Shown here piece by piece: positions 1-16,107 of a stretch of DNA of 17,151 nt (positions are counted from its first letter, which is position 1; every line of letters begins with the position of its first letter). A program made the translations under genes and the position numbers. The DNA comes from Bacteroidales bacterium (GTDB lineage: Bacteria > Bacteroidota > Bacteroidia > Bacteroidales > VadinHA17): NCBI GenBank assembly GCA_025455505.1, contig JALOMK010000008.1, positions 1-17,151 on the forward strand, read 5' to 3'. A model generated the notes under the pieces. The model was not told where the DNA came from. It saw only the letters and a list, made by a program, of their open reading frames with translations, and searched no databases.

Positions 1-174
1 GATTCGCTCCTGCTCGCGGTGACCCTTGCCATGGTCATGGTCACCTTCTCGAGTTTCAGGACCGCGGTCGTCCATGGGGCTGTTTATCAGATTCTGTTTG
101 CGGCCTGTCTGGAGATGATGTTGACTGAACCCCGCGGGGATGACGACCATTTCAACAAGGAGATCGGCCTTTAA
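1..174 (+). pseudogene. C-terminal fragment of a ChaA-type Ca2+/H+ antiporter
   Basis: Plus-strand frame open from base 1 to a TAA at 172-174. Residues 1-35 read DSLLLAVTLAMVMVTFSS, then FRTAVVHGAVYQILFAA, which resembles the last transmembrane helices of ChaA/y4hA-type cation:proton antiporters (E. coli ChaA ends with a TFSTGRTNVLNG...HLALFAAYL-like stretch). In the family the protein stops about 8-10 residues after FAA. Here the reading continues as CLEMMLTEPRGDDDHFN, which looks like the antisense of the AsmA-like gene. Codon third positions in 1-105 are strongly G/C and local GC (about 55-58%) is above that at 181-240 (about 47%), which supports real coding on this strand and a different origin. 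The junction lies within about 105-150. It may be a real rearrangement or an assembly chimera at a contig end. The family resemblance is from memory, not a search. Confidence 0.5.
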
Positions 175-681
175 GTTGGTATAGCTGGCAAGCATTCCGC
201 TGAGATGTATCCTTTCAAGATCGAGCCTGAAGTCATCTTCCTCCTGGTTCCCTTTCTCTTCGGCAATTTCGTAATTGACCTTTCCGGCCCTGTCGGCCAG
301 GAGAATGACTTTCCCTGATTTAGCGCCAATGCGTTCTATCCTGTAGTTTCCGGTAAGCACATTTCGCAGCCTGAACTCAACACTTACTGATGGAGCTGCA
401 AGGAGCGTGTCTGTAGTTCCGGGGTCAAAGGCACTCCGGTCGAATTTCTGCGATGAATGCACAAGAACATTCCTGAGTTCAAGAGAAGCCAGGGGAAACC
501 TCCTCAGGAAGGAAAGACGGTAGGAACCTGCTTCGAGCTTAGTTGAAATATTACGGTTAAGGGAATTGATCACTACTTCTGCAACTTTCTCCTGCATCAC
601 CTGCGAAACAATGAAGAGAAGAAGCACTAAGCCTCCACAAACCAGCCCTGCAAATTTAAGCACACTCAGGATCCTCTTCAT
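1..681 (-). CDS. AsmA-like protein, N-terminal part; distal end doubtful
   Basis: Open frame from an ATG at 679-681 to the window edge, 227 codons with no stop. Residues 1-30 form an N-terminal membrane anchor, followed by a stretch containing SFLRRFPLASLELRNV, which is the pattern of Bacteroidota AsmA-family envelope proteins (usually 800 residues or more, one N-terminal TM and a long periplasmic beta-rich body involved in outer-membrane lipid homeostasis). The start lies 16 nt after the stop of the peptidase E gene, so it is probably the third gene of that operon. The AsmA-like character holds to about residue 178 (position ~150). Beyond it the translation becomes rich in H, Q, R, G and E and no longer looks like this family, while the opposite strand reads as a different protein (see 1-174 plus). 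The true gene is therefore either truncated here or joined to foreign sequence. The N-terminal assignment is fairly sure; the end is not. Confidence 0.65.
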   Translation of the reverse strand, partial: MKRILSVLKFAGLVCGGLVLLLFIVSQVMQEKVAEVVINSLNRNISTKLEAGSYRLSFLRRFPLASLELRNVLVHSSQKFDRSAFDPGTTDTLLAAPSVSVEFRLRNVLTGNYRIERIGAKSGKVILLADRAGKVNYEIAEEKGNQEEDDFRLDLERIHLSGMLASYTNLKADLLVEMVVIPAGFSQHHLQTGRKQNLINSPMDDRGPETREGDHDHGKGHREQERI

Positions 682-697
682 ATTAAATAACGTTCAA

Positions 698-1405
698 TTA
701 TTTAAGCAAAAACGAAAGATCATCTGAAGCAGAACATTCAAGCGGGGGATTGCCTTTCCTGAATATCCTCAGGTTTCTCGGACCGACGAGTGAAAGCCTG
801 CCTCCGTCGAGAATCAGCATTGTCCCCTCCCTCAACCCGGCAACGTAAAGGTCCGGGTTCATTTCGATGAATTCCTCTATCCTCTGTTCCCTTGTTTCCC
901 CGGCATGTCCTTCAGGATTGGCATCGAGATAATGCGGATTAATCTGAAACGGGATGAGTCCGAAAGCCTCAAAGGAGTCGGGTTGTACAACAGCCATGTC
1001 ATTTGTTGTCCTGATAGTGGGGCATGCCATGTTTGAACCGGCGCTCCAGCCTATGTACGGAGTTCCGGAAAGGACCCTGTTCTTCACGGGCTCTATTAGT
1101 TTAAGATCGCGAACCGTCCTTAGCAGTTTCCATGTATTTCCTCCTCCAACGACAATTGCCTCGGCATTTTGCACTGCCTCAACAGGATCAGGGAGGCGGT
1201 GAATTGAAACAATGTCATGTCCCACCTGCCTGAAACGCTCCCTGACTTTTTCCTCGTAAATGTCATATGAAAAAGTTACGGCAGCATATGGAATGAAAAG
1301 GGTTTTTACTGGCGCATTTCCCAGGAAGTCACGGATATTGTATTTAGGATAATCAAGGTATGGTTCACCTGGATTTGTTGAATTGCTTATCAGTAGTAAT
1401 CTCAT
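698..1405 (-). CDS. pepE: Peptidase E (alpha-aspartyl dipeptidase, family S51)
   Basis: 235 residues, the usual length for cytoplasmic peptidase E, which hydrolyses dipeptides with N-terminal aspartate. The family signatures are in order: VVGGGNTWKLL at about 85-95, the nucleophile elbow GWSAGSN with Ser121, INPHYLD with His158, and LREGT with Glu193, giving a complete Ser-His-Glu triad. No signal peptide is visible. The start ATG (1403-1405) overlaps the end of the upstream E1-like gene by 41 nt, so the two are co-transcribed and probably translationally coupled; an AsmA-like gene follows 16 nt downstream. The biological reason for pairing with an E1-like adenylating enzyme is not evident from the sequence. 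Confidence 0.92.
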   Translation of the reverse strand: MRLLLISNSTNPGEPYLDYPKYNIRDFLGNAPVKTLFIPYAAVTFSYDIYEEKVRERFRQVGHDIVSIHRLPDPVEAVQNAEAIVVGGGNTWKLLRTVRDLKLIEPVKNRVLSGTPYIGWSAGSNMACPTIRTTNDMAVVQPDSFEAFGLIPFQINPHYLDANPEGHAGETREQRIEEFIEMNPDLYVAGLREGTMLILDGGRLSLVGPRNLRIFRKGNPPLECSASDDLSFLLK

Positions 1406-2141
1406 TGTGAGTTTTTAATTTATAAGTGATGAAAGTATTGTCATGAATATTGAAAACGAGAATCATGCCCGAGAGAACAGACCCGGTGCCCGTGATTATT
1501 TTTATAGCTTCATTGGCCATTATTGTCCCTGTTATCCCTGGAAGAACGCCGAAAAGACCTGTTTCCCCGGGAGAAGGGTTTCTGCTTGACCCTCGGTCCT
1601 TTTGAGGATTATAGTCCCTGTAGCCGGGCCCGCCCTTGTAATTGAAAACAGACACTGATCCCTCGGACCTGTAAATTGATCCATGCACCATTGGTTTTCC
1701 TGAGGCGGAGCAGGCATCATCTATTGCATAGCGGGCTTCAAAATTGTCGGTTGCATCAACAATTATGTCAAAGCTGCTGCATATGCGACCTGAATTGGAG
1801 GAGTCCAGTCTGATATTGAATACTTCTATCTTGCTCAGGAGAGCTATCTCTTCGAGTCTTTGCTTTGCAATCACTGATTTTAGCTTGCCCAGGTCGGAGC
1901 TGCCGTAAAGGATCTGCCTCTGCAGGTTAGTTTCATCCACCGTGTCAAACTCCACGATGCCTATCCTTCCGGTTCCGGCGGCGGTAAGATATTGGAGTAC
2001 AGGGCATCCAAGCCCGCCGGCTCCAACGACAAGAACTGAAGAATTCCGGATCTTCTCCTGACCCTCAATGCCGATTCCCGGAAGCATTATCTGTCTTCCG
2101 TATCTTCTGCGCTCCCGCTGTGACAGGTAAGGTGATTCCAT
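1365..2141 (-). CDS. E1-like ThiF/MoeB/HesA-family adenylyltransferase lacking the family cysteines
   Basis: 258 residues with the full adenylating core of ThiF/MoeB proteins. An N-terminal RRYGRQIMLPGIG motif (about 12-24) is followed by the nucleotide-binding GAGGLG at 40-45, D66 and the NLQRQ motif at 72-76 with Arg75, Lys88 after a conserved glycine, and DATDNF at 129-134 with Asp132. The family adenylates the C-terminal Gly-Gly of a sulfur carrier (MoaD or ThiS). The zinc-binding CxxC pairs and the ThiF-type cysteine expected around 172-195 and near the C-terminus are missing: the family's CYRC reads GYRD (172-175), SCAEAG reads SPGETG (190-195), and the tail has no CxxC. There is no rhodanese domain and no ThiS/MoaD gene in the window. 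It is the first gene of an operon with pepE. The enzyme class is clear, but the substrate is not predictable and the protein may not be a sulfur-carrier activator. Confidence 0.85.
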   Translation of the reverse strand: MESPYLSQRERRRYGRQIMLPGIGIEGQEKIRNSSVLVVGAGGLGCPVLQYLTAAGTGRIGIVEFDTVDETNLQRQILYGSSDLGKLKSVIAKQRLEEIALLSKIEVFNIRLDSSNSGRICSSFDIIVDATDNFEARYAIDDACSASGKPMVHGSIYRSEGSVSVFNYKGGPGYRDYNPQKDRGSSRNPSPGETGLFGVLPGITGTIMANEAIKIITGTGSVLSGMILVFNIHDNTFITYKLKTHNEITTDKQFNKSR

Positions 2142-2163
2142 TGCAACCGGATATGACCAGCTG

Positions 2164-2171
2164 CAAATATA
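2164..2171 (-). promoter_or_regulatory. Candidate Bacteroidota -7 element for the E1-like/pepE operon
   Basis: The minus strand reads TATATTTG, an exact match to the TAnnTTTG -7 consensus of Bacteroidota, 22 nt upstream of the E1-like ATG. No clear TTTG -33 element is seen about 20 nt further upstream, so only half of the promoter is supported. Confidence 0.4.
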
Positions 2172-2227
2172 CTTTTTTTATTCAGTAGCGACGTCTTCGT
2201 TGCTATCCTGCGGGTTGGAATTATTGC

Positions 2228-3367
2228 TCAGGGAAGAGGTCTTTCGCTCCTCACAGGAGCGTTCACTTTCAGAAGGCGTGAGCTGAAGTATACTGAACTG
2301 ACATCCCCGGTCTCGTTTGTATTCCTGCTGATTGCCATTTCCCAGCCCAGCAGCTTGTTAATTCCGCTTACCCCGGCTTCGGCGATCTCATATGCTTTAA
2401 GAGGGCTTTCTTCAGGAGTCTCCTCTTTCAGGATTTTCTCCCTGAAATTCCTGGCAATAAAGCGGCCTATTGTACTGCGGTCTTCGTCCTGGTTGTAATC
2501 CGGGATTTCGATCCTTGAAACTGCAAGTGCTGCATGCATTTGCTGTCCGCTTATCCCGATCCTGTTTTCAAGGTTTATGCGCCGGGGAAAGGCTCCTGCC
2601 GGGGTTTCACGCATTGAGCCGACTTCAGGAATTGTAACATTTGTTACATCCCGGGTTCTGAAATCTGCTTCTCCTGAAGCAGACCGTGTATCATACGTGT
2701 TTACACTGCCTTCGGAGACTGATTCCTTTTCTCCCTCCTTTACTGGATCAGCCATTGTTAATTGTTTTTCTGCCTTGGGGCTGGTTGCAGCTATTTCTGA
2801 CACGTTTTCCGGTGACTTAATGCCGTTGGCAGCTGCTATTTCTGAAGGGGAAGATGGAGATGGCTCATTTACAAGGATAAGCCTGTAAAGCGAAAAAAGA
2901 AGAAGAAGCGATGCGGCAGCCCCCATGATTTTATAGGCAAGGCTCAGGGTCCGGGTCCTGCCTTCAGGGTGTTTAAGCCTGTGTTTCCCGGGGAAAACCA
3001 TTTTACCAGGTTTCAGCCTTGTTTTAATAATGAGTTCATAGCTGATCCTCCTCGCAGGGTCAGTTGCCAGCAGTTCATTCAGCTCTGCCTCTCCATCCGG
3101 GGTGATATCATTTTCAAGTTTTGAGACTGCAAGGAGATCGAACTGGTCGGAAGAAATCTGTGAAAGGTCCTTTTTTAGTGAGGACTTGGAGGGGAAAGTG
3201 GAAAAATTATCGGACAGGAGGCTGAAAAGACCAAGATCGGCATATTCCTCCCTGAGGTCAGGGTTTTCATCAAGAAATTCCTGCAAAACAAAATACTGGT
3301 CTCTTGTAAGATTACCGTCCTCAAGGTCGATAAGCCAGATCTGGTAGTTATTCCTGTCGATCTTCAT
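2228..3367 (-). CDS. Anti-sigma-factor-like single-pass membrane protein
   Basis: 379 residues, not recognised as a named family. The N-terminus (about 1-45: NYQIWLIDLEDGNLT...QEFLDENPDLREEYADL) resembles the short acidic helical segment that opens many Bacteroidota anti-sigma factors. A single transmembrane helix lies at about 146-166, followed by a Ser/Pro/Glu-rich linker (about 167-250) and a C-terminal domain (about 295-379) predicted to be periplasmic. The topology is N-in, C-out. Its ATG lies 2 nt after the stop of an ECF sigma factor gene, the usual arrangement of a sigma factor with its membrane anti-sigma. The inferred role is to hold the sigma factor at the membrane until an envelope signal acts on the C-terminal domain. 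It is not a recognisable FecR-type protein and no TonB receptor is adjacent. The function is inferred mainly from topology and gene order. Confidence 0.65.
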   Translation of the reverse strand: MKIDRNNYQIWLIDLEDGNLTRDQYFVLQEFLDENPDLREEYADLGLFSLLSDNFSTFPSKSSLKKDLSQISSDQFDLLAVSKLENDITPDGEAELNELLATDPARRISYELIIKTRLKPGKMVFPGKHRLKHPEGRTRTLSLAYKIMGAAASLLLLFSLYRLILVNEPSPSSPSEIAAANGIKSPENVSEIAATSPKAEKQLTMADPVKEGEKESVSEGSVNTYDTRSASGEADFRTRDVTNVTIPEVGSMRETPAGAFPRRINLENRIGISGQQMHAALAVSRIEIPDYNQDEDRSTIGRFIARNFREKILKEETPEESPLKAYEIAEAGVSGINKLLGWEMAISRNTNETGDVSSVYFSSRLLKVNAPVRSERPLP

Positions 3368-3369
3368 TG

Positions 3370-3855
3370 TTAAATTACAGTTTCAATTTTACCGATATAG
3401 CTTTTCAGTGCAATCCGTCCCCTGTAGATGTTTATTTTAACCTGTGCTTCGCTCTGGCCTGTAATTTCCCCTATTTCCTTGTAACTGTATCCCTCGTAAT
3501 CGCGCAGAAGCACTGATGATCGCTGAATATCGGGCAATCTTGAGAGTGCCTGGTGCAGTATTTCGTTGAGGTCGCTGTACTTGTCCTCATGAGTTTGGCC
3601 CGGCAAAGTGTCCCAGCCTGTGAATGAGATCCTGTTTTCCTTCCGGATTATGTCGATCATCCTGTTGTAGGCGCATGTGAAAAGCCAGGACTTTGCTACC
3701 CTGAATTCAATTCCGGCAACATTTCTCCATAGTTTCTCATAGCTGTCCTGTACGATGTCTTTTGCCTTTTCATCGTCCCTTATATCGGCCCTGATGAAAC
3801 GGTAAACCGCATCGGCAAACTCCTCAACAGCCTTGTTGTATTCCGCTACTGTCAT
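3370..3855 (-). CDS. RNA polymerase ECF-type sigma factor (sigma-70 family)
   Basis: 161 residues, the normal size of an ECF sigma factor. Region 2 spans about 12-75, with DIVQDSYEKLWRN (33-45) in the core-binding helix and SWLFTCAYNRMIDIIRKENR (56-75) as the -10-recognition segment. Region 4 spans about 98-154, with LPDIQRSSVLLRDYEGYSYK (107-126) leading into a helix-turn-helix, EIGEITGQSEAQVKINIYRG. It directs RNA polymerase to a specific regulon, probably under the control of the membrane protein encoded 2 nt downstream. A short perfect palindrome and a TTTG element lie 30-45 nt upstream of the start and could be part of its own promoter. The assignment is secure; the signal and regulon are unknown. 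Confidence 0.93.
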   Translation of the reverse strand: MTVAEYNKAVEEFADAVYRFIRADIRDDEKAKDIVQDSYEKLWRNVAGIEFRVAKSWLFTCAYNRMIDIIRKENRISFTGWDTLPGQTHEDKYSDLNEILHQALSRLPDIQRSSVLLRDYEGYSYKEIGEITGQSEAQVKINIYRGRIALKSYIGKIETVI

Positions 3856-3866
3856 ATTTTGTTTTG

Positions 3867-3898
3867 CAAAGTAAAGACGGTTAAACTATCAAATAGTT
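3867..3898 (-). promoter_or_regulatory. Possible promoter/operator of the sigma/anti-sigma operon
   Basis: A perfect 6-bp inverted repeat AACTAT-CAA-ATAGTT occupies 3884-3898. On the minus strand its centre contains TTTG (3893-3890), followed 16 nt later by TACTTTG (3873-3867), a one-base-short version of TAnnTTTG, 11 nt before the sigma factor ATG. The spacing is shorter than usual, so this is a weak candidate. Confidence 0.3.
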
Positions 3899-3946
3899 AC
3901 AGGAAGGATCTTTTTTTCCAAGGCTTTAAGCGGTTAACGGGCATGA

Positions 3947-3998
3947 GCCGGATTTTTTCCCCGGGGGATCAGTTGTCAAATAAAAAATTCAATCCGGC
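3947..3998. repeat. Long stem-loop, perfect 8-bp arms
   Basis: GCCGGATT at 3947-3954 is exactly complementary to AATCCGGC at 3991-3998, with 36 nt between. A T-run follows the left arm and an A-run precedes the right arm, so the stem could continue after a small bulge. The loop contains CCCCGGGGG (3959-3967). It sits in the non-coding region between the divergent sigma operon and the small ORF at 4047. It could be an attenuator-like or structured leader element; no family is recognised. The remainder of 3899-4046 shows no gene. Confidence 0.4.
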
Positions 3999-4046
3999 GG
4001 AACAAAAGCCGTTCATGTCTGTTTATTAAGGATATAATAAGAAAAG

Positions 4047-4124
4047 ATGATCACATTGACAATACTTGTACTAGCTCTTGCCGCCAGGCGTATTGCAGCA
4101 TTGGTGCTTACACTGATAAAATAA
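4047..4124 (+). CDS. Putative 25-residue hydrophobic small protein
   Basis: Small ORF from ATG 4047 to TAA 4122-4124. The product starts MITLTILVLALAARRIAALV, then LTLIK; it is almost entirely hydrophobic with a central Arg-Arg, compatible with a single short membrane helix or an amphipathic peptide. A purine-rich stretch (AAGAAAAG) precedes the ATG. The stop lies 4 nt before the ATG of the frameshifted cupin-like gene, in the manner of a leader or upstream cistron. No family is recognised. It is short enough to have arisen by chance, hence the low confidence. Confidence 0.3.
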   Translation: MITLTILVLALAARRIAALVLTLIK

Positions 4125-4128
4125 GGTT

Positions 4129-4451
4129 ATGAGGCTGAATTTAATGAGGTTGTTCTTTATGGCAGGCATTTTCGTTTTTGCAATTACTTCATCTGCGCGG
4201 AAGCAGGAGCCTGTTGTTTTAAAAGCTGCAGACAGCCGTTTCGGGGTCCGACGCCTTTCAAGGTTGTAAACACAAACGATCTAAAGTTGTCCTCACGCGA
4301 CACGCGCGGGGAATTTTTGTTCAGTCTGCTCTGCAGAAATGACAGGATAAAGCTTGAAAAGGGAGACATTGTTTTTGTTCCTCGAGGTCTGCCTCGCGAA
4401 TGGGAACGCAGTGCAAAAGCAGGATGGATGCTCATCCTGATGCAGCCATAA
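4129..4451 (+). pseudogene. Small exported cupin-like protein, frameshifted
   Basis: The frame from ATG 4129 codes for an N-terminal signal-like segment (MRLFFMAGIFVFAITSSA) and then QEPVVLKAADSRF before a stop at 4267-4269. A different frame then continues with clear coding character to TAA 4449-4451, containing GEFLFSLLCR, DRIKLEKGDIVFVPRGLPRE and WMLILMQP, the pattern of the last strands of a small cupin barrel. Adding one G to the GGGG run at 4243-4246 joins the frames into a 107-residue protein. The usual metal-ligand histidine region of cupins is not evident, so it would be an atypical or shortened cupin. The break could be a real pseudogene, a phase-variable tract or a sequencing or assembly error. 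It is transcribed divergently from the sigma factor operon. Confidence 0.6.
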
Positions 4452-4474
4452 GATTAGATTGACCCGGCTAAACG

Positions 4475-5890
4475 TTATTTCGGCTGGTATACCCTTATCC
4501 AGTCAACTTCAAGCGATGTAACCGATCCGACTGCCTTTTCAAGTCCTCCGGAGAAGATTACATACATTGGCTCCTGAGGAACATCGCTTGTCTGCCTGAA
4601 TACCTCGGTGTTGTTTATTTTCCAGACAAGCGAACCGGAAGTCCATTCGAGGGTATAGATGAAAAAATCGTTCGCATATCTCGATCCGAGGGCTGTCATG
4701 GCCCTGGCGCCTTTTGATGAGAAATAATCAAACCATACCTTTCCCTGTCCTGTCCTGCAAACATCGATATGCGGAGTAATCCTGTCAGAAAGCATCCAGA
4801 AGCCGTGCTTTGCGTGGGGGTCGCCAAGTTTTACCTTGGCTGAAAATATGCCGTATTTCTGCCTGAAGCTGCTTCCTGAGTTAATAAGACCCGAGGTATA
4901 GCTGAATTCCTTCATGTAGAATCCCTTATCGGCCGACCATGCCTTGCCTTGTTGTTTCTGTGGCTTTGTTATTATCCTGAGAACGCTGTTGCGCACTTCA
5001 AAGTTATCCTTTGTATATGCCTGCAGGTCGGTGTCAACAGAATAGTTATCCTTCAGAAGCTTTTCGCCCCAGTAGTAGTTCGTTATCCATTTTGATGAGT
5101 CGAGCCTGTCGCCTTCGAATTCATCATGGAAGGTGAGGGTCCTGGTTTTGAGGATATTGAACTTGTCGGAGTCTTTTGTTTTGAAGTACCATACAATATC
5201 ATCACTCTTCTTAAGCGCCTGGAACTCCTGCTCTTCCCTGAACATTTCAGACTTTTCATAACGCTTGCTGTCGAGAAGGTAGGTCTTCCTGTTCCTGAAT
5301 TCGTCAGTTGCAAGGTATTCCTTCAATTCATTATATCTTGTCAGCCGTGCCGATTTTTCAGTGGCCAGGTAATTTGCAAGCTCCTTTGAGGACTTGAATT
5401 TATAGAAGCCTTTTATGTCGGGACTGCTTTTAAGATTCTTGTATTCGATAAGCTTCTTGTATTCTTCGCTTTCCCTGAAATGCTTTTTGTCTGCTTTTTT
5501 CTTCGCCTTGAAGTCGGTGGCTGAGATGAATTTCTCAAGGGCTTCGAAATTCCTGATTTTCTCAGAGCTTTCGAACTGTCTGAAACTTTTCAGGTCGGGT
5601 CCTGAAAGGGTTTTGAAATAGAGGACGAGGTCCCTGGCCTTCTGAAGCGACAGAAACTCCTTTTCTTTTGAATACTCCTGCGATTCCTTGTATTTAAGGG
5701 AAATTATCTCTTTTTTCTTCTGGATAAATCCGCCGGATTCAACAATATCCTTGAGCTTGGTGAATTTTGCAAGCTTTTCGGAGGAAGCCAGCTGCTGAAG
5801 TTTTTCGAATTCACTTATAAGTGCTTTTTCTGTTTGTTCAATTTTGGATGTTGAAGGGATAAGTCCCAGCATGAACTTGAGGCTTGCCAT
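4475..5890 (-). CDS. Triple-helical-repeat protein with a GH16-like domain that lacks the catalytic glutamates
   Basis: 471 residues. The N-terminal half holds three charged helical repeats of about 72 residues (about 37-108, 109-180, 181-250), aligned on SSEKLAKF, SSEKIRNF and SARLTRY and on KYKESQEYSKEKEF, HFRESEEYKKLIEY and RYEKSEMFREEQEF; each ends near a YFK/FYKF motif. The C-terminal half (about 251-471) has the glycoside hydrolase family 16 (laminarinase/agarase-type jelly-roll) pattern: FHDEFEGDRLDSSKW, NSVLRIITKP, YGIFSAKVKL, HGFWML and a final VDWIRVYQP. The family's catalytic E-[IL]-D-x-x-E motif reads H374-I-D376-V-C-R379, so both catalytic glutamates are replaced and only the central Asp remains. 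No clear signal peptide is visible (MASLKFMLGLIPSTS), which is unusual for a GH16 protein. It probably binds rather than cleaves a ligand. It is divergent from the TetR gene. Confidence 0.75.
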   Translation of the reverse strand: MASLKFMLGLIPSTSKIEQTEKALISEFEKLQQLASSEKLAKFTKLKDIVESGGFIQKKKEIISLKYKESQEYSKEKEFLSLQKARDLVLYFKTLSGPDLKSFRQFESSEKIRNFEALEKFISATDFKAKKKADKKHFRESEEYKKLIEYKNLKSSPDIKGFYKFKSSKELANYLATEKSARLTRYNELKEYLATDEFRNRKTYLLDSKRYEKSEMFREEQEFQALKKSDDIVWYFKTKDSDKFNILKTRTLTFHDEFEGDRLDSSKWITNYYWGEKLLKDNYSVDTDLQAYTKDNFEVRNSVLRIITKPQKQQGKAWSADKGFYMKEFSYTSGLINSGSSFRQKYGIFSAKVKLGDPHAKHGFWMLSDRITPHIDVCRTGQGKVWFDYFSSKGARAMTALGSRYANDFFIYTLEWTSGSLVWKINNTEVFRQTSDVPQEPMYVIFSGGLEKAVGSVTSLEVDWIRVYQPK

Positions 5891-6011
5891 TAGAAAAATG
5901 TTTTAGGTTCAACAGGTTAAAGATAAATATTCTTTTCACATAAACAGTAGAACGGACAATTAACAAATTTATTCTGCCTGTCATTGAAATAGGGGCTGAA
6001 AGAAAAAAAAA

Positions 6012-6043
6012 TTTGCATTTTAAAAATTCTTGATTTAACTTTG
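6012..6043 (+). promoter_or_regulatory. Bacteroidota-type promoter of the tetR operon
   Basis: TTTG at 6012-6015 and TAACTTTG at 6036-6043 match the -33 (TTTG) and -7 (TAnnTTTG) consensus of Bacteroidota, separated by 20 nt. An A-rich run (6002-6011) lies immediately upstream. The -7 element is 22 nt before the TetR ATG. The rest of the divergent gap 5891-6065 is AT-rich with no other clear element; a near-match TATCTTTA to the -7 consensus lies on the minus strand toward the GH16-like gene. Confidence 0.65.
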
Positions 6044-6060
6044 ACCAACCGTTCAGTCAA
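6041..6060. promoter_or_regulatory. Probable TetR operator overlapping the -7 element
   Basis: A 20-bp imperfect palindrome with perfect outer arms, TTGAC and GTCAA, and a symmetric A-n-C-G-n-T core (14 of 20 positions self-complementary), typical in size and shape of TetR/AcrR operators. It shares TTG with the -7 promoter element and ends 5 nt before the TetR ATG. Binding there would block transcription of the tetR-lolA-ABC operon, so autorepression is inferred. Confidence 0.55.
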
Positions 6061-6065
6061 CAAAC

Positions 6066-6707
6066 ATGTCACCGCGTACCAAGAAGCAATTTGAGGAGAT
6101 AAGGGAGGAACGAAAAGCCCTGATCATGAACACGGCCCTTGAACATTTCGCCCGCGAAGGCTATCATTCTGCAACGATAAGCCACATAGCGCGTCATGCA
6201 GGAATATCAAAAGGGCTTATGTACAACTATTTCGAAAGCAAGGAAGCCCTGCTTGCGGCAATAATTCAGCGTTCCGTGACCGAGGTATACAAGGATTTCG
6301 ACATGAATCGCGATGGTTTCCTTTCAGAGGATGAGTTTGTTAATTTCATCAGGCGGATTGCACTTGTACTTAGCGAAAACCGCTCATTCTGGCGGCTTTT
6401 CTTCCAGCTCATGATGCAGAAGGAAGTTCGGGAGGAACTGCTTAATCTGTTTCTCGGTTCAGGATCTCTTATTATCCCTTTCGAAAAAGGAACAAAGGGT
6501 CTCCTGCTTTCAGATATAATGTCGCTGATATATGACTACTTCGGCAGGAAGCGGAATTCCCGCAATACGGAATACGATCCGCGTCTCGAAATGAATATGT
6601 TCATAATCACGATAAAGGGCTTTGCGCTTACATATATTTTTTCAGATGATGAGGATAAGGAATTTACTGAAAAAACAATAAACAGGATAATAGAAACTTT
6701 CAAATGA
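6066..6707 (+). CDS. TetR/AcrR-family regulator with an embedded EF-hand loop
   Basis: 213 residues. The N-terminal TetR DNA-binding domain spans about 16-62, with HFAREGYHSATISHIARHAG then ISKGLMYNYFESKEALLAAI. Just after the third helix, residues 79-90 read DMNRDGFLSEDE, a textbook EF-hand calcium loop: Asp79, Asn81, Asp83, Gly84, a hydrophobic residue at loop position 8 (Leu86), Ser87 and Glu90. It is flanked by helices (SVTEVYKDF before, FVNFIRRIALVL after), as a helix-loop-helix requires. The C-terminal ligand-binding domain spans about 95-213. The gene opens an operon; its TGA overlaps the next ATG (ATGA, 6704-6707), so it is co-translated with the LolA-like gene. A palindrome and promoter just upstream suggest autorepression. 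The TetR fold is secure; calcium binding is an inference from the motif alone. Confidence 0.92.
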   Translation: MSPRTKKQFEEIREERKALIMNTALEHFAREGYHSATISHIARHAGISKGLMYNYFESKEALLAAIIQRSVTEVYKDFDMNRDGFLSEDEFVNFIRRIALVLSENRSFWRLFFQLMMQKEVREELLNLFLGSGSLIIPFEKGTKGLLLSDIMSLIYDYFGRKRNSRNTEYDPRLEMNMFIITIKGFALTYIFSDDEDKEFTEKTINRIIETFK

Positions 6708-7477
6708 AAAACACTGCTTTTAACACGAAGCTGATTCCGGCAACAGTTCTGTTTTTTGCATCCGGACTGCTCCTTTTTTCCCAGGCACCCGACGCGAAGG
6801 AGATAGTAAGACGCGCCGATGAAAAATTCAACGGCGAGAAATCGAGCCTCATGACAATGGCAATGACAATTATAAGGCCTTCGTGGCAGCGGACTGTTGA
6901 GTTTAAAAACTGGACCAAGGGCAGGGATAATGCACTCACGTTAATAACAGCCCCGGCGAGGGATGCCGGCCAGTCTTTTCTTAAGAGAGGTACAGAAATG
7001 TGGAGCTGGAATCCTGCCATAAGCAGGCTTATCAAGCTCCCTCCCTCGATGATGTCGCAGGGCTGGATGGGCTCCGATTATACAAACGACGACATCCTAA
7101 AGGAATCATCAGTTGTGGACGACTATGAACATATCCTCAGGGGGGAGGAAAATGTCGACGGCAGGCCCTGCTACAGGATCGAAATGATTGCCCGGGAAGA
7201 GTCAGCTGTAGTCTGGTCAAAACAGATCAGGTGGATAGACAAGAAGGAATTCCTTGTGCTCAGGGCAGAGCTTTACGATGAAGACGGCGCAATTGTAAGA
7301 ACAGAAACGGGAAGCGAGATAAAAATGATGGACGGCAGGACAATCCAGACAAGGATAGAGCTTGTGCCTGCCGATGAACCGGGGAACAAAACAATTGTAG
7401 TAATAAAGGATATTAAGTTCAATATTCCGATTGAAGACAGCTTCTTTTCGCAGCAGAATATGAAAAACGTGAGGTAA
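6704..7477 (+). CDS. LolA-like periplasmic lipoprotein-sorting protein
   Basis: 257 residues with an N-terminal signal peptide (about 1-27, hydrophobic FFASGLLLFS, cleavage likely near SQ-AP) and no lipobox cysteine, so it should be soluble and periplasmic. The body matches the LolA-like outer membrane lipoprotein-sorting protein family (Pfam PF17131 from memory): EIVRRADEKFNGEKSS at the start of the mature protein, MWSWNPAISRLIKLPPSMM, the hallmark MGSDYTNDDILKES, and a final IEDSFFSQQNMKN. Members have an open half-barrel that can carry an acyl chain through the periplasm. It lies between a TetR regulator (4-nt overlap) and two LolCE-type permeases (30 nt downstream), which supports a carrier role between the inner-membrane ABC complex and the outer membrane. 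Whether the cargo is a lipoprotein or another lipid cannot be told. Confidence 0.87.
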   Translation: MKNTAFNTKLIPATVLFFASGLLLFSQAPDAKEIVRRADEKFNGEKSSLMTMAMTIIRPSWQRTVEFKNWTKGRDNALTLITAPARDAGQSFLKRGTEMWSWNPAISRLIKLPPSMMSQGWMGSDYTNDDILKESSVVDDYEHILRGEENVDGRPCYRIEMIAREESAVVWSKQIRWIDKKEFLVLRAELYDEDGAIVRTETGSEIKMMDGRTIQTRIELVPADEPGNKTIVVIKDIKFNIPIEDSFFSQQNMKNVR

Positions 7478-7507
7478 CCGCTGTAAAGATATATAATACA
7501 CGGAACT

Positions 7508-8920
7508 ATGAGAAATTATAAAATGGCATGGAGGAATCTCTGGAGGAACCGCAGGAGGACTCTCATAACAGTTGCATCGGTCTTCTTTGCCGTATTTTTT
7601 GCCCTTGTGATGCGCTCGCTTCAGCTTGGAGCCTATGACCATATGTTCAGGAATATTATTGAGTCCTATACTGGGTATCTGCAGATTCAGCACGAGGATT
7701 TCTGGGATACGCGGAGCATTGACAACCTGATCGAAAACAGTCCTGAACTTGAGAAGCTTATCCTGAAAAATGAAAATGCGGATTTACTCATTCCCAGGAT
7801 CGAATCCTTTGCCCTGGCGTCATCGGGGGAAGTCTCGAAAGGCGTGCTTGTGATGGGAGTGGATCCTGAAAGGGAAAAGTACCTTTCAAATATCGGATCG
7901 AGACTTATCAAGTATTACATAACAGAAGAATCAATCGAGCTCATCAGGAACTCAGGGGCACCTGAAGATGTTGCAAAGCGCATAAGTGAGCTTAAAGGTA
8001 ATGCTTACCCATCGAATTCCTCCCTTGAACTTGACCTCGGTATTCGTGCAGGCGATTCAGCATCGCTGATGCCTCTTATCCGGTCGAACACTAACTTCCG
8101 GAACGGCTACATAAAAAGCGGGGAAAGCTCTGTGCTCACGGGTAAGGCGCTGGCGGAATACCTTAAACTTTCAGTCGGTGATACTATCGTGCTTATAGGG
8201 CAGGGTTACCGGGGGGCTTCAGCAGCCGGAAAGTACCGTGTTGCAGGCATAGTAAAGCTTCCCTCTCCCGACCTTGACAATAAAATTGTATACCTCCCGC
8301 TCGATGTCTGCCAGGAACTCTATGACGCTCCGGGCATGGTTACATCTCTCGCTGTAAGCGTGAAGGATAACGGTGACAGGGCTGTCGATGCCATGACAGG
8401 CCTTATAGGGAAAGAGCTGAGCCCTCCCCTGAAGGCCATGGACTGGCGGCAGATGAACGAATTGCTTATTAACCAGATGGAAGGCGACAATAAAAGCGGA
8501 ATGGTAATGATAGCAATACTATACCTTGTGATAGCATTCGGGATCTTCGGTACAGTGCTTATGATGACTGCCGAAAGAAGAAGGGAGTTCGGGGTACTCG
8601 TGGCCGTGGGCATGCAGAAGACAAAACTTGCCCGCGTGGTGGTTTTCGAAATGCTCTACATAGGTTTCATGGGCATACTCTCGGGCACCCTGGCTGCGAT
8701 GCCGGTGATAATTTACGGCTATCTTCATCCTATAAGGTTTACAGGCGAAATGGGTAAAATGTACGAAGACTATGGTCTTGAGCCGGTTATGCCCTTTTTG
8801 CCCGCCGACTGGTACATCGTCTGGCAAATGGTGGTTGTTGCTGTAATTGTGCTTATTGCACTTATATACCCTGTAAGAAAGATAATGCGGACAGATGTAG
8901 TAAAATCCTTAAAAGCCTGA
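7508..8920 (+). CDS. ABC transporter permease, FtsX/LolCE/MacB type (first of two)
   Basis: 470 residues with the four-TM MacB/LolC topology: TM1 about 19-39, a large periplasmic domain about 40-330, then TM2 about 331-353, TM3 about 377-403 and TM4 about 434-455. The cytoplasmic loop after TM2 has the conserved ERRREFGVLVAVGM (356-369), the FtsX coupling segment that contacts the ATPase. The periplasmic domain carries an unusual extra segment (about 136-199, helical, IRNSGAPEDVAKRISEL) between the two expected lobes. It pairs with the second permease 3 nt downstream and the ATPase after it. By family knowledge such complexes extract lipoproteins or lipids from the outer leaflet of the inner membrane, or drive mechanotransmission, rather than import. 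The family is sure; the substrate is unknown. Confidence 0.9.
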   Translation: MRNYKMAWRNLWRNRRRTLITVASVFFAVFFALVMRSLQLGAYDHMFRNIIESYTGYLQIQHEDFWDTRSIDNLIENSPELEKLILKNENADLLIPRIESFALASSGEVSKGVLVMGVDPEREKYLSNIGSRLIKYYITEESIELIRNSGAPEDVAKRISELKGNAYPSNSSLELDLGIRAGDSASLMPLIRSNTNFRNGYIKSGESSVLTGKALAEYLKLSVGDTIVLIGQGYRGASAAGKYRVAGIVKLPSPDLDNKIVYLPLDVCQELYDAPGMVTSLAVSVKDNGDRAVDAMTGLIGKELSPPLKAMDWRQMNELLINQMEGDNKSGMVMIAILYLVIAFGIFGTVLMMTAERRREFGVLVAVGMQKTKLARVVVFEMLYIGFMGILSGTLAAMPVIIYGYLHPIRFTGEMGKMYEDYGLEPVMPFLPADWYIVWQMVVVAVIVLIALIYPVRKIMRTDVVKSLKA

Positions 8921-8923
8921 GCC

Positions 8924-10351
8924 ATGATAATTAAAACAGCATGGAAGAATGTGTGGAGGAACAAGGTGCGAAGCTTTGTTGTAATTGCCTCCGTAACAGT
9001 AGGGGTCTTCTCTGCAGTCTTCTCCGTTGCGGTGATGAACGGGATGATAGCCCAGCGGGTGAATGCTGCGCTTGATGAGGAGATATCACACATCCAGGTT
9101 TCGGCAAAGGGTTTTTCGCTGAACCAGGATCCTGACCTCGTTATATCTGATGCGGCGGCTGTTGAGAAGGTTATTTCGGGAATTCCCGGGATCGCAGGTC
9201 ATGTTCGGAGGACAATAGTTTCCGGCATGGCGGGAACAGCAACAAAAAGTGCAGGTGTAGAAATATCCGGAATAAACCCGGAAGAAGAGAAAACGATATT
9301 CTCACTCGATAAAAAAATAATCACTGGCACCGGCTCATTTTTTGATGGTGATTCAAGGCCCGACCTGGCGCTTATCGGCCAGGACCTGGCCAGGGATCTT
9401 AATATTATCCGCTATTCAGTTGACAGCCTTGTCCTCGGGAAGCTCAGGGAAGAAAATGTGCCCGCACCGGTTCTTGAGAAGCTGAATACACTCTCAGGCG
9501 AGAGGTTTGCAAATGAGAAAAAGTTCACCAGGAGAGTTAAAACACTTCTTTCTGCCAGGGAAACTGCCAGGTACGGGCATATTATAAAAGAGGCAGCCTG
9601 GAGTTTCAGGGAGGGATCGCGTTTCACACTGACATTTCTCGACAGGAATGAAGTCCAGGTCGGAGCCCGTTTCAGGATTACGGGAATTTATGATACCAAG
9701 AACTCTATGTTCGAGAGTACCCAGGTATTCGTCCGTGCTGCTGACCTGAGAAAATACACGGGCATGTCCGAAAGTGACTGCCATAAAATAATAATGAGGC
9801 TGGACGACAGTGACATGACTGTGCAGACTACAGAATCGCTTGCAAAGGCGCTTCCGGGCCTGGACGTCACAAACTGGAAAAAGCTTCAGCCCGATCTTGC
9901 GCTTATGACTGACTATGTACACCAGATCTACGGAATACTGTTTGCGATAATCCTTGCGGCACTTGCATTCGGAATTGTAAACACGATGCTGATGGTGGTC
10001 CTCGAAAGGACAAGAGAGCTCGGGATGCTAACCGCCATTGGGATGAACAAGCGAAAGGTGTTTTCGATGATAATGCTTGAGTCTGTTTTTCTTTCCCTTA
10101 CCGGGGGTGCAGCAGGAATGCTTGCAGGTTGGATAGCAATTCTCCTTACGGCTCGGAACGGGATTAATTTTGTAAAATATGCCGAAGGACTTGAAGCCTT
10201 TGGATATTCGGCACACCTCTACCCTGAAATTAGCTTCTCATTCTTCATAATGGCAACGATCCTGATAATTATTACAGGAATCCTGTCGTCAGTATACCCG
10301 GCCTTCAAGGCCCTGAAGCTTAATCCTGTTGAGGCGATCAGAACAGAATAG
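8924..10351 (+). CDS. ABC transporter permease, FtsX/LolCE/MacB type (second of two)
   Basis: 475 residues, with the same architecture as the preceding gene but clearly diverged: TM1 about 17-40, periplasmic domain about 41-334, TM2 about 335-358, TM3 about 383-408, TM4 about 437-458. The coupling motif is ERTRELGMLTAIGM (361-374). The N-terminal IIKTAWKNVWRNKVRS is the usual amphipathic start of LolC/E permeases. A helical segment of about 68 residues (about 162-230) is inserted in the periplasmic domain, at a different place and with a different sequence from the insert of the first permease. The two products probably form a LolC-LolE-like heterodimer with the ATPase encoded next. The start is 3 nt after the previous stop. 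Confidence 0.9.
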   Translation: MIIKTAWKNVWRNKVRSFVVIASVTVGVFSAVFSVAVMNGMIAQRVNAALDEEISHIQVSAKGFSLNQDPDLVISDAAAVEKVISGIPGIAGHVRRTIVSGMAGTATKSAGVEISGINPEEEKTIFSLDKKIITGTGSFFDGDSRPDLALIGQDLARDLNIIRYSVDSLVLGKLREENVPAPVLEKLNTLSGERFANEKKFTRRVKTLLSARETARYGHIIKEAAWSFREGSRFTLTFLDRNEVQVGARFRITGIYDTKNSMFESTQVFVRAADLRKYTGMSESDCHKIIMRLDDSDMTVQTTESLAKALPGLDVTNWKKLQPDLALMTDYVHQIYGILFAIILAALAFGIVNTMLMVVLERTRELGMLTAIGMNKRKVFSMIMLESVFLSLTGGAAGMLAGWIAILLTARNGINFVKYAEGLEAFGYSAHLYPEISFSFFIMATILIIITGILSSVYPAFKALKLNPVEAIRTE

Positions 10352-10355
10352 TAAC

Positions 10356-11063
10356 ATGAAACACAATAAGGCAATGAAAATTCTCGAACTTAAAGACGTG
10401 CACAAGATTTATAACAGCTCTGAGATCAAGGTCCATGCTGTCGACGGGGTCACGCTCAGCTTCAATGAAGGCGAATTTGCAGCAATTGTCGGGCCCTCGG
10501 GATCCGGAAAGACAACTCTTCTTAACCTTATAGGGGGGCTTGACATGCCCTCTTCAGGAGAGATAATCATTGATGGCACTAACCTTGCTACCCTGAAATC
10601 ATCTCAGCTTATAGACTTCAGGATGAGAAACATAGGCTTTGTATTCCAGGCATATAACCTGATCCCTGTGTTAACCGCAAAAGAAAATGTCGAATTCATA
10701 ATGACGCTGCAGAAGTGGTCGAGGGAAGAAAGGGATAAGCGCACTTTTGAGCTTCTGAAGGCGGTGGGGCTTGGAGACAGGGCCTCCAGCCGGCCCTCAA
10801 AGCTTTCCGGGGGCCAGCAACAGCGTGTTGCCGTGGCAAGAGCCCTGGCGTCAAGGCCGAAATTCGTCCTGGCAGATGAGCCGACAGCAAACCTAGACTC
10901 ACGGTCGGCAGCCACTCTCCTTGAGATAATGGAAAAATTAAACCACGAGGAAAAGATCACTTTTATTTTCTCAACTCACGATCCGAGGGTGATGAAGATG
11001 GCGCACAGGGTTATTACTCTCGAGGACGGCCAGGTTGTGTCTGACGATGTAAAGGAGGCATAA
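10356..11063 (+). CDS. ABC transporter ATP-binding protein, LolD/MacB type
   Basis: 235 residues from ATG 10356, 4 nt after the permease stop. An internal ATG at 10374 with AAGG upstream gives a 229-residue form (MKILELKDVHKIY) that fits the family start equally well, while an in-frame start at 10329 would lie inside the permease gene and is less likely. From 10356, Walker A GPSGSGKT is at about 46-53, the Q-loop FQAYNLIP at 97-104, signature LSGGQQQRVAVARAL at 150-164, Walker B FVLADEP at 170-176 and the H-switch STHDP at 206-210; all catalytic residues are present. The protein is the cytoplasmic motor for the two preceding permeases. The next gene starts 1 nt after its stop. Confidence 0.93.
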   Translation: MKHNKAMKILELKDVHKIYNSSEIKVHAVDGVTLSFNEGEFAAIVGPSGSGKTTLLNLIGGLDMPSSGEIIIDGTNLATLKSSQLIDFRMRNIGFVFQAYNLIPVLTAKENVEFIMTLQKWSREERDKRTFELLKAVGLGDRASSRPSKLSGGQQQRVAVARALASRPKFVLADEPTANLDSRSAATLLEIMEKLNHEEKITFIFSTHDPRVMKMAHRVITLEDGQVVSDDVKEA

Positions 11064-11064
11064 C

Positions 11065-12219
11065 ATGATCAGGCGCCTGTCTGCAATACTGCTTTTTTCT
11101 GTCCTTGCCTTTTCCCGTGCGGCCTCCCAGGAGCCTGAGAAGCGCTTGTCAGCGGCTGGTTACCTGTCAGCAATGCAAAGCGTGATGTTCGATTCCCTGT
11201 CGGGTCCCTTTATAAATGACAATCTTGTTCATAACAGGATCAATCTGAAAGCATGGCTGGATGATCATATCACTTTTGCGGCTGAATTCAGGAACAGGTT
11301 GTTTACCGGTGACATGCTGCGGATCAATCCGTCCTTCGCTGAAAACACAGGAGCTGACCAGGGCGTGATTGACATGTCGTGGAACCTTGTTAACGAACAA
11401 TCGGTGCTTCTGAATACTACTGTCGACAGGCTCTGGGCCGATTTCAATTACGGGAAGTTCCAGGCAAGGATAGGGCGTCAGAGGATAAACTGGGGCCAGA
11501 CAATGGTCTGGAATCCTAATGACATATTCAATGCATATTCATATTTCGACTTTGATTATGTTGAGCGCCCCGGAAGCGATGCCGTAAGACTGCAGTATTA
11601 TCCCGGGTTCTCCTCGGCAATTGAGCTTGCTGTTAAAGCCGACAATGAGGACAGGATAACAGCAGCACTCCTGTACAGGTTCAATAAGTGGGGCTATGAC
11701 ATCCAGTTCCTGGGCGGTTATTCCGGCAGCGAGGATTATGTCCTCGGGGCCGGTTGGTCCGGGGCGTTGGGTTCCGTATCGTTCAGGGGCGAATTTTCGT
11801 GGTTTCAACCGGCAGAAAACAGGCCCGGCGCTTCCGGAACCGGCATATTCACAACGGGGATCGACAAGGTCTTCACCAATAACTCGACGGTCCAGGCGCA
11901 GGTCATGTACTGCAATAACCCGTCTGACCCGGCAGGCTTCGGTTCAATCTACTATGGAAACATTTCAACAAAGGAGCTTGCCTTTTCTGAATTCTCTGCC
12001 TTCGGGTCCTTTTCATGGCCTGTCACACCCCTTTTTACGCTCGGCATATCAGGAATGTGGTTTCCCGACCTCGAAGGTTTCTTTACCGGCTCCTCCGCCG
12101 ACTTTTCAGTAGCTGAAAATGTCGACCTGTCGGTATTCTGGCAATATTTCAGGACTGAAGACAACAACATTGAGACAAGGCTGAACCTTGGTTTCCTGAG
12201 GTTTAAGGTAAGTTTCTGA
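11065..12219 (+). CDS. Outer-membrane beta-barrel protein of the ABC/LolA operon
   Basis: 384 residues. A clear signal peptide (about 1-22, LSAILLFSVLAFSRAAS) is followed by alternating amphipathic strands through to a C-terminal LGFLRFKVSF, with the terminal Phe typical of Bam-inserted barrels. A segment with RIGRQRINWGQTMVWNPNDI (about 138-157) resembles the DUF1302/alginate-export-like porins that often accompany LolA-like and transporter genes. It begins 1 nt after the ATPase stop. It would supply an outer-membrane step for the ABC-LolA route, or be the place where the cargo is delivered. A specific Pfam family is not asserted; about 16 strands would fit the length. The barrel nature is fairly sure. 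Confidence 0.8.
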   Translation: MIRRLSAILLFSVLAFSRAASQEPEKRLSAAGYLSAMQSVMFDSLSGPFINDNLVHNRINLKAWLDDHITFAAEFRNRLFTGDMLRINPSFAENTGADQGVIDMSWNLVNEQSVLLNTTVDRLWADFNYGKFQARIGRQRINWGQTMVWNPNDIFNAYSYFDFDYVERPGSDAVRLQYYPGFSSAIELAVKADNEDRITAALLYRFNKWGYDIQFLGGYSGSEDYVLGAGWSGALGSVSFRGEFSWFQPAENRPGASGTGIFTTGIDKVFTNNSTVQAQVMYCNNPSDPAGFGSIYYGNISTKELAFSEFSAFGSFSWPVTPLFTLGISGMWFPDLEGFFTGSSADFSVAENVDLSVFWQYFRTEDNNIETRLNLGFLRFKVSF

Positions 12220-12257
12220 AAAATATATACATTTGCCGCTTCTATAATCTGAATGCG

Positions 12258-12995
12258 ATGGCACTTGTACATGAACTTGAAATCAGCGGCAACTGGCTGT
12301 TCAAAAGGCGAAGCTGGCTGCCTGTTCTTATAATTATCCCCGGCATTCTTGCAATGTTCCTTGCCAACAGGCAGGCTTTGATCTTCGATATGAGTGAGGA
12401 ATTGCTGTTTCTCGGCGTGACTCTGGCCGGGCAGGTGATAAGGATAATCACAGTGGGTTTTGCTCCCGGAAACACCTCGGGCAGGAACACATCCGCAGGC
12501 CAGGTCGCTGATACAATTAATACAACCGGAATATATTCTCTCGTGCGCCACCCGCTTTACCTTGGCAACTTTTTCATGTGGCTCGGGCCGGTGCTTTTTC
12601 TGAATTCGGTTTGGTTTGTTATTGTTTTCTGCATGTTCTACTGGCTATATTATGAAAGAATCATTTTCGCCGAGGAGCAGTTCCTAAGAAGGAAGTTCGG
12701 GGATTCGTACGACGCGTGGTCGGCAAAAGTGGCCCCCTTCATACCCCTGTCGTTTAATTATATGAAACCCGCACTCCCTTTTTCGCTGAAAAGCGTTCTG
12801 AAAAGGGAATACAACAGCTTTGTTAATATTTTCGTGATATTCACACTCCTGGATCTCTGCAGGAATTACTTCCTCAGTGGGCATATTTTCATTACCGGAA
12901 TGTGGATGTGGATTTCCCTGGGAGGCCTGGCTGTATGGCTTGTGATCAGGGTTATCCATAAAAAAACCTCCCTTCTTGAGTCAGAAGGAAGGTGA
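12258..12995 (+). CDS. Membrane methyltransferase of the ICMT/PEMT superfamily, possibly LmtA-like
   Basis: 245 residues with several membrane segments (about 21-37, 49-66, 103-133, 187-207, 213-232). The SAM-binding signature of the isoprenylcysteine/phospholipid methyltransferase superfamily is present: GIYSLVRHPLYLGNF (91-105, with Arg97-His98-Pro99), then YYERIIFAEEQFLRRKFGDS with Glu139-Glu140, and YDAWSAKVAPFIP. Substrates of this superfamily include prenylcysteine, phospholipids and, for LmtA of Leptospira, the lipid A 1-phosphate; lipid modification fits a Bacteroidota envelope better than prenylcysteine. It follows the beta-barrel gene by 38 nt on the same strand and is probably the last gene of the operon, although the gap is larger than between the earlier genes. 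Exact substrate not determinable. Confidence 0.78.
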   Translation: MALVHELEISGNWLFKRRSWLPVLIIIPGILAMFLANRQALIFDMSEELLFLGVTLAGQVIRIITVGFAPGNTSGRNTSAGQVADTINTTGIYSLVRHPLYLGNFFMWLGPVLFLNSVWFVIVFCMFYWLYYERIIFAEEQFLRRKFGDSYDAWSAKVAPFIPLSFNYMKPALPFSLKSVLKREYNSFVNIFVIFTLLDLCRNYFLSGHIFITGMWMWISLGGLAVWLVIRVIHKKTSLLESEGR

Positions 12996-13003
12996 TTTTC
13001 TGC
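12971..13003 (+). terminator. Weak hairpin at the end of the tetR-ABC operon
   Basis: CCTTCT (12971-12976) pairs with AGAAGG (12983-12988) around a 6-nt loop at the very end of the methyltransferase gene, followed by TTTT about 7 nt later and then CTTTTT. The T-run is not immediately after the stem, so this is only a possible terminator between the convergent genes. Confidence 0.25.
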
Positions 13004-13027
13004 TTTTTATTATCTCACTAATACGGG

Positions 13028-13708
13028 TCAGTCTCGGCTCGCACCAGTAAATATCATCACATAGTAGAGAAGGGTTGCAAGCGAACCCAGTGCAGCTACA
13101 ACATATGTATAGGCAGCCCATTTAAGCGCATCCTTTGCCATGTCGTGGTTCTGGTACGATGTTACGCCTGCATTCGAAAGCCATGCGAGGGCCCTCTGGC
13201 TTGCATTGATCTCAACGGGCAGGGTTATGAAACTGAAGACCGTTGTGAGTGCAAACAGAACTATACCTGCAAATAGAAGAGCCGGAAAGGTCTGTACCAT
13301 AAGGACACCGGCAAGCAGTATCCATTGCACCCATTTCGATGAGAAGCTCACTGCCGGAACCATCTTCGACCTGAAGTTCAGCCAGGCATAGGCCTCTGCA
13401 TGCTGAACTGCATGTCCGCATTCATGTGCGGCAACAGCGGCAGCAGAAATGCTCCTTCCGTTGTAGACCTCGGGACTTAGGTTCACGGTTTTGTCAGTGG
13501 GATTGTAGTGATCGCTCAGATGGCCCTGTACGCTGACAACCTTCACATCAAAGATTCCATAGTGGTTGAGCATTCTCTCAGCCACTTCGCGTCCCGACAT
13601 GCCGTTGTCGAGGGCAACTTTCGAGTATTTCTTAAACTTTGATTTAAGAACCATGCTTACGATCCAGCTCAGGATCATGAATCCTATAAAAATAATCCAT
13701 ATATTCAT
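13028..13708 (-). CDS. Membrane zinc metallopeptidase, YugP type (Zn_peptidase_2)
   Basis: 226 residues, the usual size of the family. An N-terminal TM (about 2-21) precedes a cytoplasmic-type segment with GMSGREVAERML and SDHYNPTDKTVNLSPEVYNG. The zinc site HECGH lies at 95-99 (ligands His95 and His99, catalytic Glu96), and PVEINAS (164-170) supplies the probable third ligand Glu166. Further TMs lie at about 122-140, 143-162 and 200-220. It is probably a single-gene unit, convergent with the methyltransferase gene. A strong ribosome binding site precedes the start. The physiological substrate of the family is not known to me. Confidence 0.9.
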   Translation of the reverse strand: MNIWIIFIGFMILSWIVSMVLKSKFKKYSKVALDNGMSGREVAERMLNHYGIFDVKVVSVQGHLSDHYNPTDKTVNLSPEVYNGRSISAAAVAAHECGHAVQHAEAYAWLNFRSKMVPAVSFSSKWVQWILLAGVLMVQTFPALLFAGIVLFALTTVFSFITLPVEINASQRALAWLSNAGVTSYQNHDMAKDALKWAAYTYVVAALGSLATLLYYVMIFTGASRD

Positions 13709-13717
13709 ATGTTCTTT

Positions 13718-13724
13718 CCTCCTT
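13718..13724 (-). promoter_or_regulatory. Strong Shine-Dalgarno site of the YugP-type peptidase
   Basis: The minus strand reads AAGGAGG 9 nt before the ATG at 13708, a near-perfect anti-16S match. This is unusual in this window, where most starts have weak or no such site, and it fixes the start codon. Confidence 0.6.
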
Positions 13725-13753
13725 ATTTGGTTTACAATATAACATCAAAAAGG

Positions 13754-13775
13754 CTGCCATGTTCAATTCTGGCAG
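13754..13775. repeat. Inverted repeat CTGCCA-N10-TGGCAG
   Basis: Perfect 6-bp arms at 13754-13759 and 13770-13775 in the divergent gap between the peptidase gene and yidD. Read on the minus strand the hairpin is followed by CCTTTTT, so it could be a terminator for minus-strand transcripts or an operator; the sequence does not decide. Confidence 0.3.
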
Positions 13776-13795
13776 AAAGGTCGCCATTTTGTCAG

Positions 13796-13829: not shown

Positions 13830-13833
13830 CAGA

Positions 13834-14145: not shown

Positions 14146-14170
14146 GGAGGGGGGCCTTTGCAGAAAATGA

Positions 14171-16098: not shown

Positions 16099-16107
16099 GA
16101 TTTTGTG

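Follow-up and report, generated by a model that had tools for sequence, protein, structure and literature searches.

The DNA analysed here, called the window throughout, is a stretch of 17,151 nucleotides from a Bacteroidales bacterium of the VadinHA17 lineage (contig JALOMK010000008.1, positions 1 to 17,151), and it contains a gene for a TetR-family regulator whose hinge, between the DNA-binding and the ligand domain, carries an EF-hand loop. The best overall explanation, which we hold with belief and doubt in about equal measure, is that a single site for a divalent cation, probably Ca2+, at the hinge of helix alpha4 modulates the activity of an autorepressor. A canonical loop at residues 79-90, helices on both of its sides and a location at the hinge had all been proposed in a preliminary description made from the sequence, and each of these points was borne out by the analyses presented below.

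The gene (6066..6707, + strand), recognized by its open reading frame, Pfam matches, AlphaFold2 model and fold comparison, encodes an autorepressor-like protein of 213 residues, which has an N-terminal helix-turn-helix domain of the TetR_N family (residues 20-66; 6123..6263, +; Pfam 1e-16, 60.8 bits at a cut-off of 24) and an all-helical two-domain fold, and thus belongs to the TetR family. Its loop DMNRDGFLSEDE (residues 79-90; 6300..6335, +), identified by sequence, Pfam, conservation and AlphaFold2, is a canonical 12-residue EF-hand loop, with ligands present at positions 1, 3, 5 and 12, Gly at position 6 and a hydrophobic residue at position 8; the end coordinate given previously, 6338, includes F91, and the loop proper stops at 6335. 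The match of the regulator to EF-hand_1 in the Pfam scan (E 2e-5, 24.2 bits) lies just below the cut-off of 25.4 bits. When its own genome, about 69% complete, was searched with the same family, the regulator reached 27 bits and was the sole one of three matches (E up to 1) above the cut-off. No second DxDxDG loop was found in a scan of the regulator, indicating that the EF-hand is single and unpaired in sequence, pairing with another being customary for EF-hands though not part of their definition, and neither the EF-hand pattern nor DxDxDG occurred in the seven neighbouring proteins scanned. The PROSITE-type EF-hand pattern used for all counts appeared in 29 of 20,000 shuffles of the regulator. 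It occurred twice among 980 other reading frames of the fetched loci, taken from stop to stop with a minimum of 200 residues and regardless of whether they are real genes. It was present in 54 of 174 distinct TetR sequences, always at the hinge and nowhere else in them.

Conservation of the loop follows the EF-hand register. Among the best 120 of 2,657 homologues, query included, position 1 is D in 119, position 3 is always N, D or E (120), position 5 is D in 118 and N in two, position 6 is G in 118, position 8 is L in 119, position 9 is S or T in 120, and position 12 is E in 119 and D in one. A more diverse set of 62 sequences, selected at a profile score of at least 200 and hence biased towards loop-bearing ones, gave D1 in 57, N/D3 in 59, D5 in 55, G6 in 56, L/I8 in 62 and E12 in 59; in the same set positions 2, 4, 7, 10 and 11 vary widely, position 9 being intermediate. 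EF-hand_1 (E <= 0.01) matches 50 of the 56 members of our alignment A1, and no EF-hand family matched any of the 40 relatives picked as loop-free. According to precomputed Pfam domains, an EF-hand family is assigned to 55 of the 120 listed homologues of the 2,657; where the source names the homologues, AcrR family transcriptional regulator is the usual designation.

In the AlphaFold2 model of the regulator, helix alpha4, corresponding to the entering helix of the EF-hand (residues 59-75; 6240..6290, +; DSSP assignment), is followed by a loop at 76-87 and by helix alpha5, the exiting helix (residues 88-104; 6327..6377, +; DSSP assignment). The exiting helix begins at residue 88, that is at position 10 of the EF-hand loop, so that a helix-loop-helix is predicted; the entering helix stops about three residues ahead of the loop, sooner than is usual for EF-hands. 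In the model of one motif-less relative, whose gene diverges from the same LolA/FtsX genes, a helix (residues 58-81) and a four-residue turn occupy this place, and the length of the hinge region in loop-free relatives is equal to that in loop-bearing proteins within one or two residues. Since the motif-less relative has a helix and a turn there, the EF-hand seems, as far as the models can tell, to have been formed in place, out of the last part of TetR helix alpha4 and the turn that leads to alpha5, while the length stayed the same or nearly so. Insertion of a domain was considered and ruled out by the near-equal hinge lengths and the plain helix of the contrast model. For the same reasons an EF-hand domain is an improbable ancestor of the loop in the window. 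Fold neighbours of the regulator include the acyl-CoA-binding FadR and FasR and the drug-binding TtgR. No EF-hand protein was present among 50 fold-alignment rows, all of which are regulators or their complexes by name, a result that excludes nothing. The hinge of one same-genus relative (L097) is longer and changed, DADIPYISHDRPLSPDE replacing the 12-residue loop.

The position of a putative operator makes autorepression the most likely mode of action of this regulator. A 20-base-pair (bp) inverted repeat, TTGACCAACCGTTCAGTCAA (6041..6060), found by consensus search, ends 5 bp ahead of the TetR start codon, and it is the sole site in the window within six mismatches of the operator consensus. 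It overlaps TAACTTTG (6036..6043, +), which fits TAnnTTTG, the -7 box consensus of Bacteroidota; a TTTG sequence 20 bp upstream of the box (6012..6015, +) is a candidate -33 element. Sufficient upstream DNA was available for 167 of the 174 TetR sequences, and in this sample operators within five mismatches of one consensus were found in 53 of 53 loop-bearing and 85 of 114 loop-free upstream regions, and in none of 835 shuffled ones. TAnnTTTG running into the operator (continuing as TTGAC...) was observed in 52 of the 53 loop-bearing regions and in 39 of the 85 loop-free regions with an operator; the arrangement at 6036-6060 of the window is the same. Promoter and operator thus appear, on the level of sequence, to be merged, the operator starting inside the -7 box, and because this conserved inverted repeat overlaps the -7 box of its own operon, the regulator would cover its own promoter. 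By eye, two operator copies seem to be located upstream of TetR in four loci (L021, L052, L056 and L095).

It was suggested previously that metal occupancy of the loop could change operator spacing. The operators of loop-bearing and loop-free regulators are much alike in both sequence and half-site spacing, and these similarities suggest that the EF-hand loop hardly changes which DNA is read. A separate operator type for the loop-bearing proteins was likewise left unsupported, the same consensus serving both groups.

One plausible mechanism would involve an autorepressor sitting on the inverted repeat over the -7 box of its own operon promoter, in which, in one part of Bacteroidota, a single unpaired EF-hand loop was formed out of the last turns of alpha4 and the turn between it and alpha5. 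This loop would bind a divalent cation, and its filling would fix the angle of alpha4 relative to alpha5, so tuning repression. In TetR proteins it is alpha4 that, by swinging like a pendulum, transmits ligand binding to the DNA-binding domains. Pendulum motion of alpha4 separates the induced from the DNA-bound state in QacR and Bacillus halodurans FadR (PMC8053128). In the regulator studied here, the EF-hand is placed at the far end of this helix, at the junction of the DNA-binding and ligand domains. Binding of Ca2+ changes the angle between the two helices of an EF-hand, and Glu at position 12 favours Ca2+, the switching ion, over Mg2+. With Glu at the bidentate position 12 in nearly every case, Ca2+ would be the most likely ligand. 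We are fairly confident that the loop binds a metal and consider it rather probable that this metal is Ca2+; our judgement is evenly poised as to its modulating repression. We lean towards a co-repressor function, in which the filled, stiff loop would repress and the empty, floppy one would loosen DNA binding, since loop-free relatives, of which the one model has a rigid alpha4-turn-alpha5, retain a similar operator, and the filled loop should resemble them.

Several observations weigh against metal-modulated repression. An EF-hand without a partner is generally weak, and the level of free Ca2+ in the bacterial cytosol is low, hence the site might be empty, filled with Mg2+ or constantly structural. 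The loop also appears to be dispensable, as many relatives in which the operon is retained either lack it or have it in a decayed form: the pattern is present in 48 and absent in 83 of 131 distinct TetR proteins with a LolA-like gene nearby on either strand, and 49 of 85 new sequences from the order with such a gene have it and 36 lack it, some of the latter being near misses, such as NPNKDGVLTEEE or DPDHDSKLTDEE. The conservation expected for homologues at this locus was therefore only partly found; positions 1, 3, 5 and 12 are kept in the 120 listed homologues, but relatives next to LolA-like genes often lack the pattern, which is the very case named in the preliminary description as refuting. 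Moreover, 29 of the 114 loop-free upstream regions had no operator within five mismatches, and in a phylogenetically corrected test of joint loss of the ligand positions along the tree described below, the sign tests listed had 5-14 supported independent pairs, too few for a verdict (median p 1). Some doubts concern the motif itself: six of the 56 members of alignment A1 are missed by EF-hand_1; at a threshold of E 0.001, L038 and L048, which are more distant members, match TetR_N and not EF-hand_1; and conservation at positions 9 and 12 could partly stem from an N-capping box of helix alpha5.

The main competing explanation, possible though in our opinion doubtful, is that of a structural site, in which the EF-hand is permanently filled with Mg2+ or Ca2+ and staples alpha4 to alpha5, all sensing being performed by a hydrophobic ligand of the C-terminal domain. 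It would agree with the presence of one DxDxDG in the protein, with the loss or decay of the loop where the operon is retained, and with the acyl-CoA- and drug-binding fold neighbours. A moving hinge would, however, be an odd place for a purely structural metal, loop-free relatives cope with a plain helix (in the one modelled), and the Glu at position 12 speaks for Ca2+ and not for Mg2+. An unlikely possibility is that the segment is a metal-free Asx-turn with an N-capping box that resembles an EF-hand, its acids being kept for solubility or capping. Positions 9-12 (S/T-x-x-E) also form a classic helix cap, and the missed members of the alignment and the lack of an EF-hand_1 match in L038 and L048 just mentioned would fit such an origin. 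On the other hand, a cap needs neither acids at positions 1, 3 and 5 nor Gly 6 and Leu 8, and these three clustered acids, Gly and Leu are about as strictly kept as position 12, which, together with the EF-hand profile matching most members of the alignment, makes a metal-free turn less likely. Chance resemblance in one protein only, with nothing to commend it but that the regulator of the window scored below the Pfam threshold, has a negligible probability and was ruled out by the shuffles, the background frames, the hinge-only pattern and the conservation; thus, as judged from the sequences, the loop is a real EF-hand-type motif.

As regards distribution, profile A1 (E <= 1e-20) matched, with the genome of the window included in each count, 15 of 41 relatives, 113 of the 393 genomes searched from the order, 43 of 395 from the class and 40 of 395 from the phylum. 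The search of the order yielded 93 new distinct sequences, 51 of them with the pattern. In a tree of 237 of the 267 sequences, built without the loop columns and unrooted by the data, all 103 loop-bearing sequences fall within one side (180 sequences; Shimodaira-Hasegawa-like approximate likelihood ratio test, SH-aLRT, 89), and the other side, of 57 sequences, has none. At least 31 changes of loop state are required, seven of them forced by well-supported branches, compared with 77 under shuffled labels. The simplest reading of these sequences would be one origin of the loop followed by its repeated decay, a reading with moderate support; several independent origins would be a less simple alternative. 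Among the sequences sampled, the loop appears to be a trait of a part of the Bacteroidota tree and not universal to the system. One loop-bearing regulator is that of the cultured marine bacterium Carboxylicivirga linearis FB218 (L048), with the loop DPNHDGVLTEEE and the full operon present.

The regulator had also been described as standing ahead of an envelope transport operon, and indeed its gene heads an operon of the order TetR-LolA_like-FtsX-FtsX-ABC-DUF1302-like, all on the + strand. The LolA_like gene (6704..7477; Pfam LolA_like 1.4e-54) overlaps the TetR stop codon with its ATG (ATGA) and is followed by two genes for FtsX-type, LolC/E-like permeases recognized in family scans (7508..8920 and 8924..10351), by that of an ABC transporter ATPase in a LolD-like position (10356..11063; Pfam ABC_tran 7.8e-36; its start is uncertain, a TTG at 10329 being listed and the scans having used the frame from 10359) and by that of a weakly DUF1302-like protein (11065..12219; Pfam DUF1302 E 0.0064, under the cut-off), which occupies the same place in related loci and is perhaps an outer-membrane barrel. 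The operon resembles the LolCDE-LolA lipoprotein sorting system in combining a LolA-like protein, two LolC/E-like permeases and an ABC ATPase, and differs from it in that the permeases, at 94.7 and 111.5 bits, are far under the NCBIfam lolCE equivalog cut-off of 362.45 bits and that the DUF1302-like protein follows. Of the 80 loci L001-L080, 67 have a LolA-like match, and the gene order from TetR to the DUF1302-like protein is common to many of them where the contig extends far enough. A PEMT/ICMT-like methyltransferase gene (12258..12995, +; Pfam and comparison of loci) comes after the operon, as it does in some near relatives (L001, L003 and L005). Some loop-bearing copies are located away from the operon; that of Parabacteroides sp. 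PFB2-10 (L038, 5959-6594) is outside a Lol-like operon and adjoins genes for an AraC-type regulator and gyrase/topoisomerase subunit A. Divergent from the TetR gene of the window, at 4475-5890 (-), lies a gene for a 471-residue protein with a GH16 domain (Pfam 1.5e-7), ahead of which several helical repeats of about 60 residues, and no signal peptide, were seen by eye; a GH16-type protein of this kind is also divergent from TetR in L002, L004 and L005.

The combination of features differs from that of known systems. TetR/AcrR one-component repressors are represented by FadR, FasR, RutR, TtgR and QacR; no acidic EF-hand loop was seen in the five alignments of solved members shown, 60 being listed of the 174 solved sequences that match profile A1 (E <= 1e-6), which excludes nothing, whereas in the regulator of the window such a loop takes the place of the last part of alpha4 and of the turn. 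Some TetR proteins, such as SczA, which responds to Zn2+, are under metal control; these depend on transition metals and other ligands and are not known to have an EF-hand. With EF-hand proteins of the calmodulin type and the bacterial EfhP and calerythrin, the regulator shares a 12-residue Dx[DN]xDGxLSxxE loop between two helices, and unlike them it has one unpaired loop within a DNA-binding repressor. Re-emergence of the calcium motif in unrelated folds is a likeness to the Dx[DN]xDG loops outside EF-hands described by Rigden et al. 2011 (PMC3123361), from which the regulator differs in that a helix stands on either side of the loop and the 12-residue register is complete; a word search of the text of that article found no transcription, repressor or helix-turn-helix, and 'tetr' only within tetraurelia. 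The passages available from a review on bacterial calcium proteins (PMC10574481) likewise contain no TetR EF-hand. Targeted literature searches, covering titles and the openings of abstracts, with most subscription journals outside coverage, turned up no account that links a TetR protein with an EF-hand or with calcium. As far as searched, the combination of TetR and EF-hand is already present in database annotations and undiscussed in the literature.

Cases in which Ca2+ is known to act on bacterial transcription directly, through a one-component system, are few, and, if the proposed mechanism is true, the regulator would add to them, its EF-hand being placed at the hinge by which the DNA-binding domains are moved. 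Tentatively, a large group of Bacteroidota may control an outer-membrane transport operon by a one-component repressor gated by an EF-hand of its own, which evolved in place out of the pendulum helix alpha4 and through which a divalent cation, probably Ca2+, would be read directly. Since loop-bearing, decayed and loop-free relatives share the operon and the operator, they may serve as a natural experiment on the gain and loss of a metal switch, and they would show that an EF-hand can arise through remodelling of a helix and not through domain fusion.
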